A DNA stretch of 64,000 bases, taken from contig JAUIJE010000002.1 of assembly GCA_030431455.1 (NCBI GenBank), forward strand, positions 257,294 through 321,293, written 5' to 3'. Position 1 is the first letter of the stretch. Each line of letters opens with the position of its first letter. This document shows positions 10,382-22,955 of the stretch, in pieces. Both the position numbers and the translations under genes were made by a program. Below the pieces are notes generated by a model. That model ran no database searches. It saw only the letters and a program-made list of their open reading frames with translations, and was not told where the DNA came from. The DNA is from a bacterium (GTDB lineage: Bacteria; Myxococcota; UBA727; JAUIJE01).

Positions 10382-11554
10382 ATGGACTTTCGCATCTCTG
10401 TTCCCGAGCTGTCGCGCGCCCTGTCGATGATGCAGGGCATCGTGCAACGCAAGAACACGATGCCCATCTTGTCCAACATCCTGGTCGAGGCCGAGCGGGA
10501 CGCTGACGGCAACGGGCGCTTGATCCTGTCCGCCACCGACCTCGACGTGGGCATGCGCACGGTGCGGACCTGCGACGTCGAGGAGGCGGGCACGGTGACG
10601 GTCCCCGCCCGCGCGCTCGCCGACATGGTGCGGGTGCTCCCCGGTCCGGAAATGAGCGTGAAGAAGCTCGCCAACCAGCACGTCGAGGTCAAAAGCGGCC
10701 GGACCAACGCGCGGTTGATGGGGCTGTCCGCCGACGAGTACCCCAAGCTCCCCAACTATGAAGAGGTCACGTTCTACACCCTCGACGCCACGCTCTTTGC
10801 CGACATGGTCGACAAGACGTTGTACGCCTCGAGCACCGACGAGACCCGCTACAACCTCAACGGGGTGTTGTTCGAGCCTGCGCCCAAGCAGAGCGAGGAC
10901 CCCTCGATGCTGGTGATGGTCGCGACCGATGGCCACCGGCTGGTGCGCATCGATCGCCGCTTCGAGACCATCCCCGACGGCATCACCCTCGACGAAGGTT
11001 CGGTCATTCTGCCCCGCAAAGGCCTGGGCGAGCTCAAGCGTTTGCTCGACGTCGAGGACCCGGCCAAGGGCGGCACCGGCGAAGGCGACACCCTCGCCAT
11101 CGGGTTCAAAGAGAATCACGTCGTCGTCCGCCGGGGCAACACCACCCTGGGCATGCGGCTCATCGACGGGGCTTTCCCCGATTACAAGCAGGTCATCCCC
11201 ACCATCTCCGACAAGGTGGTGCGCATCGCCCGCGGCGACCTCGCGGAGAGCCTGAAGCGGGTGAGCGTGCTCGCCGCCGACAAGATGCAACCGGTCAAGC
11301 TATCCATCAAAGAAAATGAGCTGACCGTCGGCTGCAGCAACCCCGACGCGGGCGAAATCGTCGACGACGTGCCCGTCGAGTACGCGGGCGATGACATCGA
11401 GATCGCGTTCAATGCGCGCTACTTGAGCGACGCCCTCGCCTCCCTCGACGACCGGAACGTCCTGCTCAAGCTCACCGACAACCTCTCCCCCGGCCTGCTC
11501 GTGGGTGTCGATGAGACCCACCACCTGTGTGTGGTGATGCCGATGCGGCTCTGA
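10382..11554 (+). CDS. dnaN: DNA polymerase III sliding clamp (beta subunit)
   Basis: A 390-residue beta clamp that tethers DNA polymerase III to DNA and acts as a hub for clamp-binding proteins. It begins MDFRISVPELSRAL and ends with the hallmark VVMPMRL. Three clamp domains of about 125 residues can be followed, with conserved ATDGHRLVRID in the second and GAFPDYKQVIP further on. Length is slightly above the usual 366-378 residues because of an insertion near residues 225-240 (KGGTGEGD). It is the first plus-strand gene after the candidate origin and appears monocistronic. Confidence 0.97.
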   Translation: MDFRISVPELSRALSMMQGIVQRKNTMPILSNILVEAERDADGNGRLILSATDLDVGMRTVRTCDVEEAGTVTVPARALADMVRVLPGPEMSVKKLANQHVEVKSGRTNARLMGLSADEYPKLPNYEEVTFYTLDATLFADMVDKTLYASSTDETRYNLNGVLFEPAPKQSEDPSMLVMVATDGHRLVRIDRRFETIPDGITLDEGSVILPRKGLGELKRLLDVEDPAKGGTGEGDTLAIGFKENHVVVRRGNTTLGMRLIDGAFPDYKQVIPTISDKVVRIARGDLAESLKRVSVLAADKMQPVKLSIKENELTVGCSNPDAGEIVDDVPVEYAGDDIEIAFNARYLSDALASLDDRNVLLKLTDNLSPGLLVGVDETHHLCVVMPMRL

Positions 11555-17638: not shown

Positions 17639-18823
17639 CTATTGTGGATAGCTCTCGCACACGTAGGCCCGGACCTCGCCGCAGCCCTCGTCGTTCCAGC
17701 CCACGTCGTCGGTCTCAGCGCAGTCTTCGCCGCCCGAGTTGTTGGGTTCGCCCGACTTCCAGGCGCTGTACGTCAGCGGGCTGTTGTCGGACCAGACCCA
17801 CGTGCCCTCGACGTTGATGTCGTTGAGCCCGATCCACCATTTGCCGGTGATCTGGGTGCGCAACCACGCCGCCTCGGCCGCGTCCTCGAGCATGATCAGC
17901 CGGTAGGTCGGGTAGTTGGCGCAGTCGTTGAACGCGTTGGTCCAGGTGAGCTCAAGCGGATCGGTGGTCGGCACCACCCGGTAACAAAAGTTGTAGGGCT
18001 TGAGCGTGTCCCCGTCGCGGTAGCCGACGTCGCACAGGCACGTCTCGGTGCTGTCGGCGAACCCGTCGCAGTCGTTGTCGATGCCGTCGCAGACCTCCGT
18101 CTCAAACGGGCTGCGGGTGTTGTCGTCGTCGGCACAATCATCGGTCGCCGACGGGCTGAACAGATAGCCGGCCGGGGCCGTCGCCCCATCGGTGCACACC
18201 GTGGTCGGGCCGCCCACGGTCGCGCCGTCTCCGTCCCCGTCCACGTACATGCTCATCAACGTGTGCAGGTTGGCGTTGCCTTCGTCGCAGTCCGGTCCAT
18301 TGGCACACCCCACACCATAGGTGTCCCCGTCGGTGTCGCCCGGACAATCTCCATCCCCATCTCCATCCCCGTCTCCGTCGCCATCTCCATCCCCGTCTCC
18401 GTCGCCATCTCCATCCCCGTCGCCATCCCCGTCTCCGTCGCCATCTCCATCTCCGTCGCCATCTCCATCCCCGTCTCCGTCGCCATCTCCATCTCCATCC
18501 CCGTCTCCGTCGCCATCTCCATCTCCATCCCCGTCTCCGTCGCCATCTCCATCCCCGTCTCCATCTCCATCCCCGTCTCCGTCGCCATCTCCATCTCCAT
18601 CCCCGTCGCCATCTCCGTCCCCATCGCCGATGGGCAGGGGGTTGGACGCGACGCACTCGCCGTCGAAATTGCAGATGGGACGCAGGGGGTCGGTGCAGTC
18701 TTCGGACACCGCACAATCCGGACCAGAGCCGGTCGGCTCCGGCTCGGTCGGTTCGACGTTGCCGTCGGAGCACGCCCAAAGCCCTGCGATGAGCACGCAG
18801 CTGAGTCGAAGTGTCGCGCGCAT
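17639..18823 (-). CDS. (GD)n-linker lipoprotein with C-type lectin domain
   Basis: A 394-residue surface lipoprotein. A lipobox ending GLWAC is followed by a Cys-rich EGF-like segment ([21 protein letters not shown]), a Gly-Asp linker of about 47 repeats (18349-18630), and a MopE-like metal-binding repeat ([10 protein letters not shown]). Then comes a C-type lectin domain over the last 140 residues: [26 protein letters not shown] with the mannose-type EPN triad, and [18 protein letters not shown]. It is probably a calcium-dependent glycan-binding adhesin on an acidic stalk. A GGGGGAGGGG sequence precedes ATG 18823. Confidence 0.9.
18349..18630. repeat. Hexanucleotide microsatellite encoding (GD)n
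   Basis: About 47 tandem copies of a six-base unit (GGNGAY on the coding minus strand), with silent variation between ggg/gga/ggc and gat/gac. Such DNA is prone to copy-number change in steps of two residues. The plus strand is also open as (SP)n, which is not a gene. Confidence 0.9.
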
Positions 18824-18983
18824 GTGTCTACCCCTCCCCCAATGTACCACCCCAGATCCGGTCGTTCCCGGATCCACCCCAAACGATCTGGGGCCGGCGG
18901 TTTGACAAATCACCCCACCCCCGCCCGTGTGGAACCGCAGGGTTCTGGTGTTGGCCAGTCCCCGGACGGGGTACAACCGCGCC

Positions 18984-20675
18984 GTGGGCATCTTCGCCGC
19001 CAGCCACTACGCCCTCGCGGGCCTGACCGGGTTCTTGGCCGTGGTGCACCTGGCGTTGGCGGTGGCCCGGCGCGAGCGCATCCATGTCTGGACCGCGATG
19101 GCGTTTGTGGGCTGGGTGGTGGTCACCCTCGCGATCGCCCGCTCCTCAGTGGCCGGCGGGGGAGAGTACAGCCTCGCGGTGCACTTCGCCCTCGGGCTGC
19201 CCTCGTCGGTGTGTTTGTGGTTCGGGGCGCTGTTCATGGCCTGGGACCACCACCGCCGGGGCATGACCCGCGCGCGCTGGGCGGTGGTGGCCGGCATCGC
19301 CGCGGTGATCGCCGCCCGCACCGTCGAGGTGCCGCTGGCGATCCAGGCCGCGCCCGGCCCGCTCAGTTGGGAAGACATCCACAATGCCATGGCATTGTGG
19401 ACGGCGGGGCCGTTCTTCGTGGTGTCCATGGGGGTGTGCGCCGCGTGGCTGGTGGCCGGCTACCGGGCGGCGCAAAAACAAGGGCCAGGCATCGCCCTGC
19501 TCCTCGCCATCCCCGCGCTGGTGGTGCTCGCCGACCTGGTGTGGGAGGTCGCGCTCACCTTCGAGCTCGTGCAGGGCCCGACGCTCATCGGGTTCGACGC
19601 GGTGGTGTTCGTGTTCTACTCGACGAGCGTGGTCGCGCTGGGCTATGCGCAAGCCAAAGACGAGGACGAGCTCGAGACCCGCTACCAGATCGTGCGCAAG
19701 GTCGCCGAGGGCGGCATGGGCGCGCTCTACCTCGCGGTGCGCAAAGGCCCGGCCGGGTTCGAGCGGCAGGTCGCGGTCAAGACCATCCTGCGCCCCGACG
19801 ACGACCGGGACCAAGACCGGTTCTTGGTCGAGGCCAAGGTCGCGGCCCAGCTCAGCCACCCCAACATCGTGTCCGTGTTCGACCTCGGCCAGACCAAGAA
19901 CGGCTGGTTCATGGCCATGGAGTTTCTCGACGGGGTGAGCGTGGCGGAGTTTTTGCGGCAAGCGGTGCACAAAAAGCGCCCGGTGCCGATCCACGTCGTG
20001 GCCACGGTGGGGGAGCGGGTGTGCCGGGGCCTGTCCCACGCCCACCAGCGGGGGGTGATCCACCGGGACATCAGCCCGCAAAACATCATGATCACGTTCA
20101 CCGGGGACATCAAGATCATCGATTTTGGAATAGCAAAACTATCAAATCAAGACGCGCCCGCCGCCCCCCTGCAGTTCATCGACACCGTCGACACCCAGAA
20201 GACCAAGGGCATGATCGGCAAGCTTCGCTACATGAGCCCCGAGCGCTGGAAGGGCGAGACCGCCACCATTCGGTCGGACCTGTACGCGTTGATGATCGTG
20301 CTGTTCGAGATGGTGGCCCAGGACTACCCCTTCGACGGGGACAACGCCAAAGCCCGGGCCAAAAACCTCATGAGCGGCGCGCTCCGGCCGATCAAACGCC
20401 TGCGGCCCGACTGCCCCGAGGCCTGGGTCACGTTTTTTGCCCAGGGGCTCTCGCCCGATCCTGTGCGGCAGTTCTCGTCGGCCGAGGTCCTGGGCGAGCA
20501 GCTCGTGACCCTGCGCGAACAACAGCCGCCCGCCTCCCTCGAGGCCTTGATGCAGGACCTGTTCAAGGAGCGCTTGGCCGGTCAAGCCCCGGTCGTCGAC
20601 GACCAAGCCGCGTTCGCCCCCACCGAACCCGTCGAGCACGACACCGTCACCGCCGCCACCCTCGACCTCGGCTGA
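18984..20675 (+). CDS. Membrane Ser/Thr protein kinase (N-terminal multi-TM sensor)
   Basis: A 563-residue Hanks-type kinase. Residues of about 5-215 hold six or seven hydrophobic helices, then a cytoplasmic kinase domain: glycine loop VAEGGMGALY, Lys266 in VAVKTI, catalytic HRDISPQN (His360, Asp362), DFG at 380-382, and YMSPERW. Kinases with the sensor at the N-terminus and the kinase at the C-terminus reverse the usual PknB order. GTG 18984 is preferred over GTG 18927 because a TACAAC box lies six bases upstream, suggesting a leaderless message, and because it starts at the first helix. Rare codons cluster around the DFG motif (20121-20155). Confidence 0.9.
   Translation: MGIFAASHYALAGLTGFLAVVHLALAVARRERIHVWTAMAFVGWVVVTLAIARSSVAGGGEYSLAVHFALGLPSSVCLWFGALFMAWDHHRRGMTRARWAVVAGIAAVIAARTVEVPLAIQAAPGPLSWEDIHNAMALWTAGPFFVVSMGVCAAWLVAGYRAAQKQGPGIALLLAIPALVVLADLVWEVALTFELVQGPTLIGFDAVVFVFYSTSVVALGYAQAKDEDELETRYQIVRKVAEGGMGALYLAVRKGPAGFERQVAVKTILRPDDDRDQDRFLVEAKVAAQLSHPNIVSVFDLGQTKNGWFMAMEFLDGVSVAEFLRQAVHKKRPVPIHVVATVGERVCRGLSHAHQRGVIHRDISPQNIMITFTGDIKIIDFGIAKLSNQDAPAAPLQFIDTVDTQKTKGMIGKLRYMSPERWKGETATIRSDLYALMIVLFEMVAQDYPFDGDNAKARAKNLMSGALRPIKRLRPDCPEAWVTFFAQGLSPDPVRQFSSAEVLGEQLVTLREQQPPASLEALMQDLFKERLAGQAPVVDDQAAFAPTEPVEHDTVTAATLDLG
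19379..19400. repeat. 22-bp perfect palindrome inside the kinase gene
   Basis: Half-site CCACAATGCCA followed by its exact complement TGGCATTGTGG. It carries the same CAATG/CATTG ends and six-base palindromic centre as the intergenic palindrome at 4490-4509. Confidence 0.7.
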
Positions 20676-20765
20676 GCCGGGCAAGCGGGCCCAGGCAAGG
20701 CCCGGCATGGAGGCTGGGAATGTGCGGCCCCCTTCGGCAGTTGGACCCTCACGAACGGGGGAACC

Positions 20766-21137
20766 ATGAACCGTAGACAATGTTTGTGCATGCTGGGCGG
20801 CGGGGTCGCGTGGGGGTTTTCCGGTTGCCGGCCCACTTCGAGCGCGCCCCGGATCGAACCCTATGACCCGGTCGACGCCGCGTTCGCCGGCTGCCAAGGC
20901 GGTTGAGGCCAAAAGGCCGTCGGCAGGTCTGCCGACACGTTCGAGCAACCGGGGGCGCAGCCCGGCCAGAAGACCTACTGCCCGGTGAGCGGCGCGGTGT
21001 TCACCGTCGCCGACCAACCCACGCGCCAGGTCGGGAGCCACACCGTGTACTTCTGTTGCGCCGCGTGCGCGGGCTACTTCGACGAGCACCAGGCGGAGGT
21101 CGCGCAGGCCCGCGGCTGGAAGGCCCAGGCGCTTTAG
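20766..21137 (+). CDS. Selenoprotein lipoprotein with YHS/TRASH-like metal domain (UGA = selenocysteine at residue 47)
   Basis: ATG 20766 opens a frame that meets TGA at 20904-20906 and continues in the same frame to TAG 21135-21137, giving 123 residues if TGA is read as Sec47. The N-terminus has a signal with MNRRQ and a lipobox ending GFSGC. The recoded motif is CQGGU (Cys43, Sec47), a possible selenenylsulphide redox pair. Downstream, TYCPVSGAVFTV and VYFCCAACAGYFDEH form a YHS/TRASH-like Cys-rich metal-binding module that would be useless if translation stopped at the TGA. A SECIS hairpin with the fdhF-type loop follows the TGA at the expected distance. Function unknown; an envelope redox or heavy-metal role is an inference. 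The genome must then encode SelA, SelB, SelC and SelD elsewhere. Confidence 0.88.
20907..20936 (+). promoter_or_regulatory. Bacterial SECIS element
   Basis: After the TGA a small GGCC-AAAA-GGCC hairpin (20907-20918) is followed by GTCGGCAGGTCTGCCGAC (20919-20936). This folds into a perfect stem with apical loop AGGUCU, the same loop that SelB binds in E. coli fdhF. The key GGU begins 22 nt after the U of UGA, against 21 in fdhF. The bulged U of the fdhF stem is absent. Confidence 0.85.
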
Positions 21138-21140
21138 TTG

Positions 21141-21345
21141 AGGACTACAGCACATCCCAAAACCTCAGCTGGTTGCATCCGCAGGATGAAACCACGGCGC
21201 GACGGGCCGGAGGCCCTTGGAGCGCCGCCTCGAGGGTGAGGGGCAACGCTTCGCGTTGCTTCAGCCATTCCATTGGAATGGCCGCCCGACATTCGCTGAG
21301 CTTGCGAAGCGTGAGGGCCGAGGGGGGAGGAACTCCCCCCTCAAA
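21141..21345. repeat. Interspersed repeat element, second locus
   Basis: ACTACAGCACATCCCAAAACC (21144 onward) is a third version of the motif at 4083 and 4165. Bases 21148-21185 match the complement of 4263-4300. Further right are a GCAACG-CTTCG-CGTTGC hairpin (21243-21259), GCCATTCCA-T-TGGAATGGC (21264-21282) and GAGGGGGG...CCCCCCTC (21320-21342). No convincing gene lies here. Confidence 0.55.
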
Positions 21346-21347
21346 AG

Positions 21348-22955
21348 CTAGTCCTCCAGCTCGAGCCGGAGCTTGTTCTTCGCGGCCCGGGCGATCTTTT
21401 TGCGGCCGCCCTTTTTGACCACCTCCTCGAGCAGCTCTTCGCCCACCGCGAAGCCCATCTCGATGAAGTGAAAGCCGAGATAAAACTTGTGCTCGAGTTC
21501 GAGGCTGCGCTCCTTTTTCAACAGGGCGTAGAGGTCGCCCCCCTCGTCGAGGATTTCGCCAAAGATCTTGAGCGACGCGTCCCGGGCCCGCGAGGTGGGC
21601 GTGATGTCGAGCCGGCTTTTCTTGAGCTCGAGCAGGCCAAGCTTGAACTTGTCCTCGACCGTCGAGTGTTCGCTGCGCTCGAGCAGGCTCAAGATCGCCG
21701 CGGCTTTGTCGCTCTTTTTGCGCTTGCGCAGCTTGTCCGCGAGGGCCCGGAGGCCGGCGGCGACCTTTTCCTCGTCGATGGCGCGGGCGGCCTTGAGCAG
21801 GCTCTCGTACCCGGGGGTGCCCGCCTCGGCCGCGGCCAGGGCCGCGTCTAGAACTTTCTTCTTTTGGGGGGCTTTGAGCTTGTCCACCTGGGGCAACAGG
21901 ATCTGGGTCAGCCACACCGCGCGCTCGGCGTGCTCGACTTGGGAAAGCGCGGTGCAGAGGGGCACGAGAATGCTGTCCTCACCGGCGAGCGCGGCGGCCG
22001 CGGCCTCGGCCGCTTTGGGGTGGCCGTCGGCCACGATCTTGAGCAGGGCGGTCTTGGCCGCCTTGTCGTCCGATTCCTGCAGCTTGGCGATGGCGAAGCG
22101 CCCCCGGGCGTAGCCCGCGGTGTTGGCGAGGTCCACCAAGCGGGCGTGCAGGGTCTTGGGGAGGAGAAGATTGGCCAGGGTGTCCATCGCGACCTGGCCC
22201 AAAGTCGCGTCTTCGCCCTCGAGGAGCACAAACAGGGCGCGGGCCACGTCGTCGGCTTCACGCTGGCCCTGGAGCGCGAACCGCAGCGCGATGATCGATT
22301 CCATACGCACAGAAGAATCGAACTGTTCGCCCTTCACGATCTCGAGCAGCGGGGCCACCGCCTTTTGGTCCTCCAGGTAGCCGAGCATCTTGACCGCTGC
22401 GGCCAAGGTCTCGGCATCGGCGCGCACGTCCTTTTTCTTGATGAACTTCAGCACCTGGCTCAGGTAGGTCTTGCGCTCCTGCTTCTGCGCATCCTTGATG
22501 CGCCGGCGCACCTCGAGGGCGGCCTCGCGTTTGCCCTCGGGGCTGGCCTCGGCAAGCCCGCTCAAGAGCGCGCCGAAGGCATCGTCGCCGCCGAGCTTGG
22601 CGAGCACGTGGTCGAGGGCGCGCTTTTTGTCCGGGGGCGCGCCGTGGCGGGCTTGTTCGATGGGGCCGACCGCGGCCTGGCCGAAGGCGAGCAGCGCGCC
22701 TGCGGCTGCGTCGCGCACGTCGGCGCGCTCGTGCACGACATGGGGGACAATGTCTTTGAGCGTGGATTTGGCCTGAAGCTGGGCGAGGGCGGACAGGGCC
22801 GCGATCTGTTCGCCCGCGCCGCCTTGGTCGAGCAGGGCCAGGAGCGCGGGCCGGGCGGCCTTGGCCTTGATCGCGCCGAGCACGGTGGCGGCGGCGATGC
22901 GCAGGTCGCGGTCGGGCGCGGACAAGAGGCCAATGATTTTGGTCAGCTCACTCAT
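21348..22955 (-). CDS. HEAT-repeat protein
   Basis: A 535-residue soluble protein made of helical HEAT/armadillo-type repeats, for example RDLRIAAATVLGAIKAKAARPALLALL, then ADVRDAAAGALLAFG and KAVAPLLEIV. The repeats occupy at least residues 10-400; the C-terminal third is more basic and helical. Such proteins usually act as scaffolds for protein-protein contact, and no catalytic motif is visible. GGGGTGTCCC precedes ATG 22955. It is divergent from the small lipoprotein gene at 22993, with only 37 bases between the starts, so the promoters must overlap. Confidence 0.85.
   Translation of the reverse strand: MSELTKIIGLLSAPDRDLRIAAATVLGAIKAKAARPALLALLDQGGAGEQIAALSALAQLQAKSTLKDIVPHVVHERADVRDAAAGALLAFGQAAVGPIEQARHGAPPDKKRALDHVLAKLGGDDAFGALLSGLAEASPEGKREAALEVRRRIKDAQKQERKTYLSQVLKFIKKKDVRADAETLAAAVKMLGYLEDQKAVAPLLEIVKGEQFDSSVRMESIIALRFALQGQREADDVARALFVLLEGEDATLGQVAMDTLANLLLPKTLHARLVDLANTAGYARGRFAIAKLQESDDKAAKTALLKIVADGHPKAAEAAAAALAGEDSILVPLCTALSQVEHAERAVWLTQILLPQVDKLKAPQKKKVLDAALAAAEAGTPGYESLLKAARAIDEEKVAAGLRALADKLRKRKKSDKAAAILSLLERSEHSTVEDKFKLGLLELKKSRLDITPTSRARDASLKIFGEILDEGGDLYALLKKERSLELEHKFYLGFHFIEMGFAVGEELLEEVVKKGGRKKIARAAKNKLRLELED

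Follow-up and report, generated by a model that had tools for sequence, protein, structure and literature searches.

A very likely new selenoprotein subfamily: an in-frame UGA ahead of a YHS-type domain in a putative bacterial lipoprotein

A 2026 catalogue of prokaryotic selenoproteins lists 119 families and subfamilies, and assigns proteins with a different selenocysteine (Sec) position to a separate subfamily (PMC13188914). Two of its entries are closest to the gene described here, namely: the YHS domain-containing (seleno)protein family NF041384 (YHS_seleno_dom), whose motif is GxU, and the DG family (NF049953) (PMC13188914). A 'YHS domain protein (OS)' is already found among the selenoproteins in an earlier study (PMC2398784). 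In the published model of the bacterial SECIS (bSECIS), the hairpin has a loop of 3-9 nt, a stem of 4-16 bp and a G in the first two loop positions; it lies 16-37 nt from the UGA and has an MFE of at most -7.5 (PMC13188914).

The candidate gene, referred to as P0001, lies in a window of 64,000 nucleotides (the whole stretch of DNA that was analysed). Its features, with the evidence used for each, are as follows:

20766..21137, plus strand: candidate selenoprotein gene P0001, from ATG 20766 to TAG 21135-21137 (sequence and translation, coding score, GC3, homologues)
20753..20765, plus strand: purine-rich stretch ACGGGGGAACC directly abutting the ATG, seen in the sequence and putatively a ribosome-binding site
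20904..20906, plus strand: in-frame TGA, read as selenocysteine 47 (sequence, translation, Sec machinery in the genome)
20919..20936, plus strand: SECIS hairpin GTCGGC-AGGTCT-GCCGAC (folding, chance tests, comparison with the FdhA, SelD and DG-like SECIS of the same genome)
20979..21101, plus strand: YHS-type domain, CPVSG ... VYFCCAACAGYF ... (PF04945 in homologues, 14-sequence alignment)

The coordinates given in the preliminary description proved exact on re-reading: the frame opens with the ATG at 20766, reaches the TGA at 20904 and then continues for 76 codons to the TAG at 21135. With UGA47 read as Sec, the product has 123 residues. The second half of the gene had been described as looking selected, and its codon usage bears this out. 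GC at the third codon position past the TGA is 0.92, and the two neighbouring genes have values of 0.90-0.91. In addition, among the 40 TGAs in 2.46 Mb that are associated with an NGGT-loop stem of at least 6 pairs, that of P0001 has the best downstream coding (codon-usage) score (33.1); the runner-up scores 8.3, and the rest are zero or negative. When P0001 is scored by half, the value is 5 upstream of the TGA and 33 downstream, and the weaker upstream half is a point against the reading. The neighbours of P0001 are a Ser/Thr kinase gene upstream and a HEAT-repeat protein encoded downstream on the other strand; thus, there is no operon context to hint at a substrate or a particular metal. The intergenic stretch behind P0001 (window 21144-21355) is an interspersed repeat with about 60 partial matches genome-wide. 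Elsewhere in the window (18321-18620, minus strand), a long Asp-Gly tract (GDGDGD...) is found in a predicted secreted, lectin-like protein (ORF 17639-18991).

Behind the TGA, a perfect 18-base hairpin with an AGGTCT loop had been reported, with its GGU 22 nt from the U of UGA. The hairpin is present at 20919-20936 with 6 perfect pairs, and the first G of the GGU is at 20926. In the predicted fold, the A and T of the loop pair as well, which gives 7 bp around a GGUC tetraloop at a spacing of 19 nt from the UGA. The hairpin reaches -10.7 kcal/mol, while a 45-nt segment folds at -19.5 kcal/mol (z -2.8; 3 of 200 shuffles are equally good). It agrees with all four constraints of the published bSECIS model (PMC13188914), and an Rfam scan of the window returned no family. 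Chance readily produces a looser SECIS-like pattern (5.5 per 64-kb strand in shuffles), so the hairpin alone would be weak evidence. Of the 42 AGGTCT words on both strands of the window, only the one at P0001 has a 6-bp stem, and no such combination appeared in 20 shuffled windows. Furthermore, a scan of 2.46 Mb (about 32% of the genome) covered 47,676 TGA triplets, and a single one, that of P0001, is followed 19-24 nt behind by AGGTCT on a stem of at least 5 Watson-Crick pairs.

The genes to be expected if UGA is decoded as Sec, namely selA, selB, selD and tRNA-Sec, were looked for as the preliminary description had proposed, and all four are present in the source genome (7.7 Mb, 28 contigs, 96.9% complete). 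In profile searches, selB scores 279-293 bits and selA, directly upstream of it, 512 bits, both over their cut-offs. selD lies beside selA/selB in divergent orientation and has an in-frame TGA of its own at the catalytic position (GGGUAAK), while a tRNA-Sec with the anticodon UCA is found on the same contig as the three genes.

Other selenoproteins were searched for by codon usage and hairpin scan in about 32% of the genome. These include FdhA, the formate dehydrogenase alpha subunit, with Sec in CSRGUHAPTV and a GGTCT-tip SECIS (L078, minus strand, TGA 12058 of the reverse complement), and an ArsC-family (seleno)protein with RSGUTGC (L172, minus strand, TGA 5392 of the reverse complement; NF041106, E 6e-12). 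Next to selB is a relative of the DG zinc-ribbon (seleno)protein (NF049953, E 2e-16), with an in-frame UGA in CLNRUGTK and a GGTC SECIS:

L081, TGA at 10829 of the reverse complement (G000:C12:242990-243298), minus strand: DG-like gene, with the homologue L192 in genome G002

The ArsC-like and DG-like proteins score under the curated cut-offs of NF041106 and NF049953, though they are clearly related. The TGA and the GGTC hairpin of the DG-like gene are kept in G002 (CVTGUSPK), which belongs to another family of the same order and has selB. It follows, independently of P0001, that UGA is decoded as Sec in this lineage. In G103, the DG-like homologue has CGGGC in place of the UGA motif. Finally, two UxxC frames are likely to be further selenoproteins, and their products are probably exported: a redoxin-type frame with ASHUNSC that passes the Pfam Redoxin cut-off (L166, plus strand, TGA 847), and a redoxin/thioredoxin-like frame with PAWUSAC, a weak match (L084, minus strand, TGA 773 of the reverse complement). 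Altogether, the scan reveals a selenoproteome of considerable size.

The SECIS elements of these genes are built alike. Counted from the U of UGA, the distance to the start of the apical loop is 22 or 23 nt in P0001, FdhA, SelD and both DG-like genes, and the stems have 6-8 bp. P0001 and the two DG-like genes share the loop core GGUC; in FdhA the core is GUC, embedded in GGUCU, and in SelD it is GGA. The proposal that the AGGUCU hairpin is a SECIS is thus upheld by its fit to the published bacterial model as well as to the selenoproteins of the same genome. Taken together, the SECIS, the complete Sec pathway, the other selenoproteins and the coding downstream half support the earlier reading of the TGA as Sec47, and we consider it highly probable that UGA47 of P0001 is recoded as Sec.

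The predicted product is made up of a Tat-like signal (NRRQCL), a lipobox (FSGC, with Cys21), a linker (C43-QGG-U47-GQK) and a YHS-type domain (C72, C97, C98 and C101). Against PF04945, P0001 reaches 13.5 bits and stays below the cut-off of 30.3, while all three of its scanned homologues (from L025, L026 and L028, same phylum) pass it. In an alignment of 14 sequences, C72, V74, C97, C98, C101 and F105 are invariant. YHS/TRASH-like cysteine motifs had been noted after the TGA; the homologues over the cut-off and the invariant Cys and Phe residues confirm their YHS identity, and the part after the UGA is, as judged from its sequence, a diverged YHS domain. In the AlphaFold model, this domain has a pLDDT of about 80-92, while the first 60 residues are uncertain; around residue 47, in the weakly conserved linker, the pLDDT is about 51-58. 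A Foldseek search of the model against the PDB gave nothing below E 0.001; eL24 ribosomal chains and phenol hydroxylases, weak matches by both Foldseek and sequence, were rejected. The N-terminus (MNRRQCLCMLGGGVAWGFSGC) reads by eye as a Tat-like lipoprotein signal, and the signal sequence and the lipobox (MNRRQCLCMLGGGVAWGFSG-C21) are both plausible; against this stands the Phe at -3, which is atypical.

In the mechanism that we propose, SelB and Sec-tRNA(Sec) would bind the GGUC apical loop, leading to the insertion of Sec at UGA47, and the ribosome would continue through the YHS domain to the UAG. Export of the product would probably be by Tat, as its RR motif suggests, and a lipid on Cys21 would serve as the anchor. 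On the flexible linker, the selenol of Sec47 may pair with Cys43 in the CxxxU motif. Sec47/Cys43 might then, together with C72, C97, C98 and C101, act at the cell surface by binding a soft metal or metalloid ion (e.g. Cu, Hg or Ag) and passing it on; alternatively, a selenenylsulfide might form as a redox switch of the YHS metal site. The first guess is copper or another soft metal like it, since a YHS domain has been described as a probable sensor of copper (PMC4626032). Overall, a metal-binding role appears moderately probable.

The same selenoprotein could instead have a thiol/selenol redox role, i.e. a CxxxU selenenylsulfide or the reduction of peroxides or disulfides, and differ from the above in function only. 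Cys43 and Sec47 could pair for such a purpose, and redox enzymes make up most of the bacterial selenoproteins characterised so far (PMC13188914). However, the catalogued redox motifs are mostly CxxU/UxxC and CxxxU is absent from the catalogue (PMC13188914), no thioredoxin-like or peroxiredoxin-like fold was found in P0001, and its folded part is the YHS domain with conserved cysteines of the metal-ligand type. We therefore regard a redox role as possible, but as the less probable function.

With regard to residue 47 itself, the suggestion that homologues should show Cys or UGA at this position received neither support nor contradiction: in the nearest YHS homologues, this region is a variable linker with no in-frame TGA. 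Their linkers differ in length and composition and are not alignable at residue 47; they are without TGA and mostly without Cys, and as a result the usual Sec/Cys pair argument is missing. Neither in 195 genomes of the phylum nor in a sample of 384 genomes extending to other phyla did a homologue show a clear Cys or UGA counterpart, and a second copy with a UGA was likewise not seen. Relatives with both selB and a YHS homologue have no UGA at that position. Phylum searches around G201, G298 and G376 (2 genomes each for the latter two) yielded no Sec homologue, tblastn in plasmids no match, and viral contigs no relative. Few homologues carry Cys in the linker stretch, e.g. that of G035 (AGGCGCDRAKAEC). 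The linkers of G035 and G201 (GGQCPATGCGGCP) are cysteine-rich, and from these sequences a lineage-specific gain of Cys, and then of Sec, seems plausible.

Several other candidates were rejected. The match of L027 (Acidimicrobiia) to 'RIEPYDPVDAA' is antisense, lies within an unrelated reading frame and is due to chance; chance or a wrong frame seems to account for L030, L031, L035 and L036; L037 and L038 resemble YHS proteins more distantly and do not have the lipoprotein layout; and the in-frame TGA of L026 is merely its terminal stop.

A variable linker is also where a stop could arise, and the homologues are without UGA. The TGA might thus be a recent nonsense mutation or an assembly error, the gene an otherwise ordinary one for a YHS lipoprotein, and the hairpin behind the TGA a coincidence. 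Against this, the one in-register AGGTCT hairpin among 47,676 TGAs in 2.46 Mb lies exactly at P0001, its geometry matches the SECIS of FdhA, SelD and the DG-like gene, and the downstream frame keeps its full coding character. An explanation by mutation or error is therefore very improbable.

Without decoding of the UGA, the entire YHS domain could not be made, because in-frame starts past the TGA are limited to three GTG codons (residues 74, 78 and 94), all within the domain and after Cys72. The earlier statement that a conventional reading gives 46 residues and loses the metal-binding half holds for the same reason, as these starts come too late for the whole domain. UGA always doubles as a termination codon, and from what is known of Sec decoding some 46-residue product is likely when selenium is scarce; that the UGA is a true stop, however, leaving a 46-residue lipopeptide and a YHS part that is a separate internally started or unused frame, is scarcely credible given that those starts exclude Cys72 and that no homologue has the two halves split.

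With UGA47 read as Sec, P0001 is the type of gene that homology-gated selenoprotein predictors can lose, as these may miss genes without clear Cys homologues (deep-Sep, PMC12013277), and P0001 has none. If the reading is true, P0001 would contribute CxxxU ahead of a YHS domain, a motif and a Sec position not found in the 2026 catalogue, and would link selenium to an exported metal-binding lipoprotein.

Among known systems, the SelB-binding loop of E. coli fdhF is AGGUCU at near-identical spacing. The fdhF-type SECIS thus resembles that of P0001 in its hexaloop and spacing, while its stem sequence is unrelated and its host gene different. The DG relative in this genome resembles P0001 in its C-xxx-U-G-x-K motif (CLNRUGTK) and in a GGTC hairpin with almost equal spacing, but it is a different protein, a zinc ribbon with no signal peptide seen. 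It is conceivable, though doubtful, that CxxxUGxK is a new selenium motif in two unrelated small metal-site proteins of the lineage, namely the YHS lipoprotein (CQGGUGQK) and the DG-like protein (CLNRUGTK; CVTGUSPK in G002), where it would act as a soft-metal ligand or a selenenylsulfide switch and would have arisen or spread independently of the host fold. The YHS/TRASH domains (PF04945, PF24273) have the CPVxG ... FCCxxC ... F pattern in common with P0001, whereas P0001 ends differently (AEVAQARGWKAQAL) and its homologues carry no Sec. Finally, NF041384 is, like P0001, a small YHS-type protein able to carry one Sec; its motif is GxU, whereas the Sec of P0001 lies in CxxxU, N-terminal to the YHS domain. 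P0001 gave no match to NF041384 at E up to 1, and three of its homologues match it weakly (best E 0.0018). Because of the missing NF041384 match, the different Sec position and the uncatalogued CxxxU, we place P0001 at the level of a new subfamily: its product is very probably a selenoprotein, has a YHS-type domain and stands outside NF041384.
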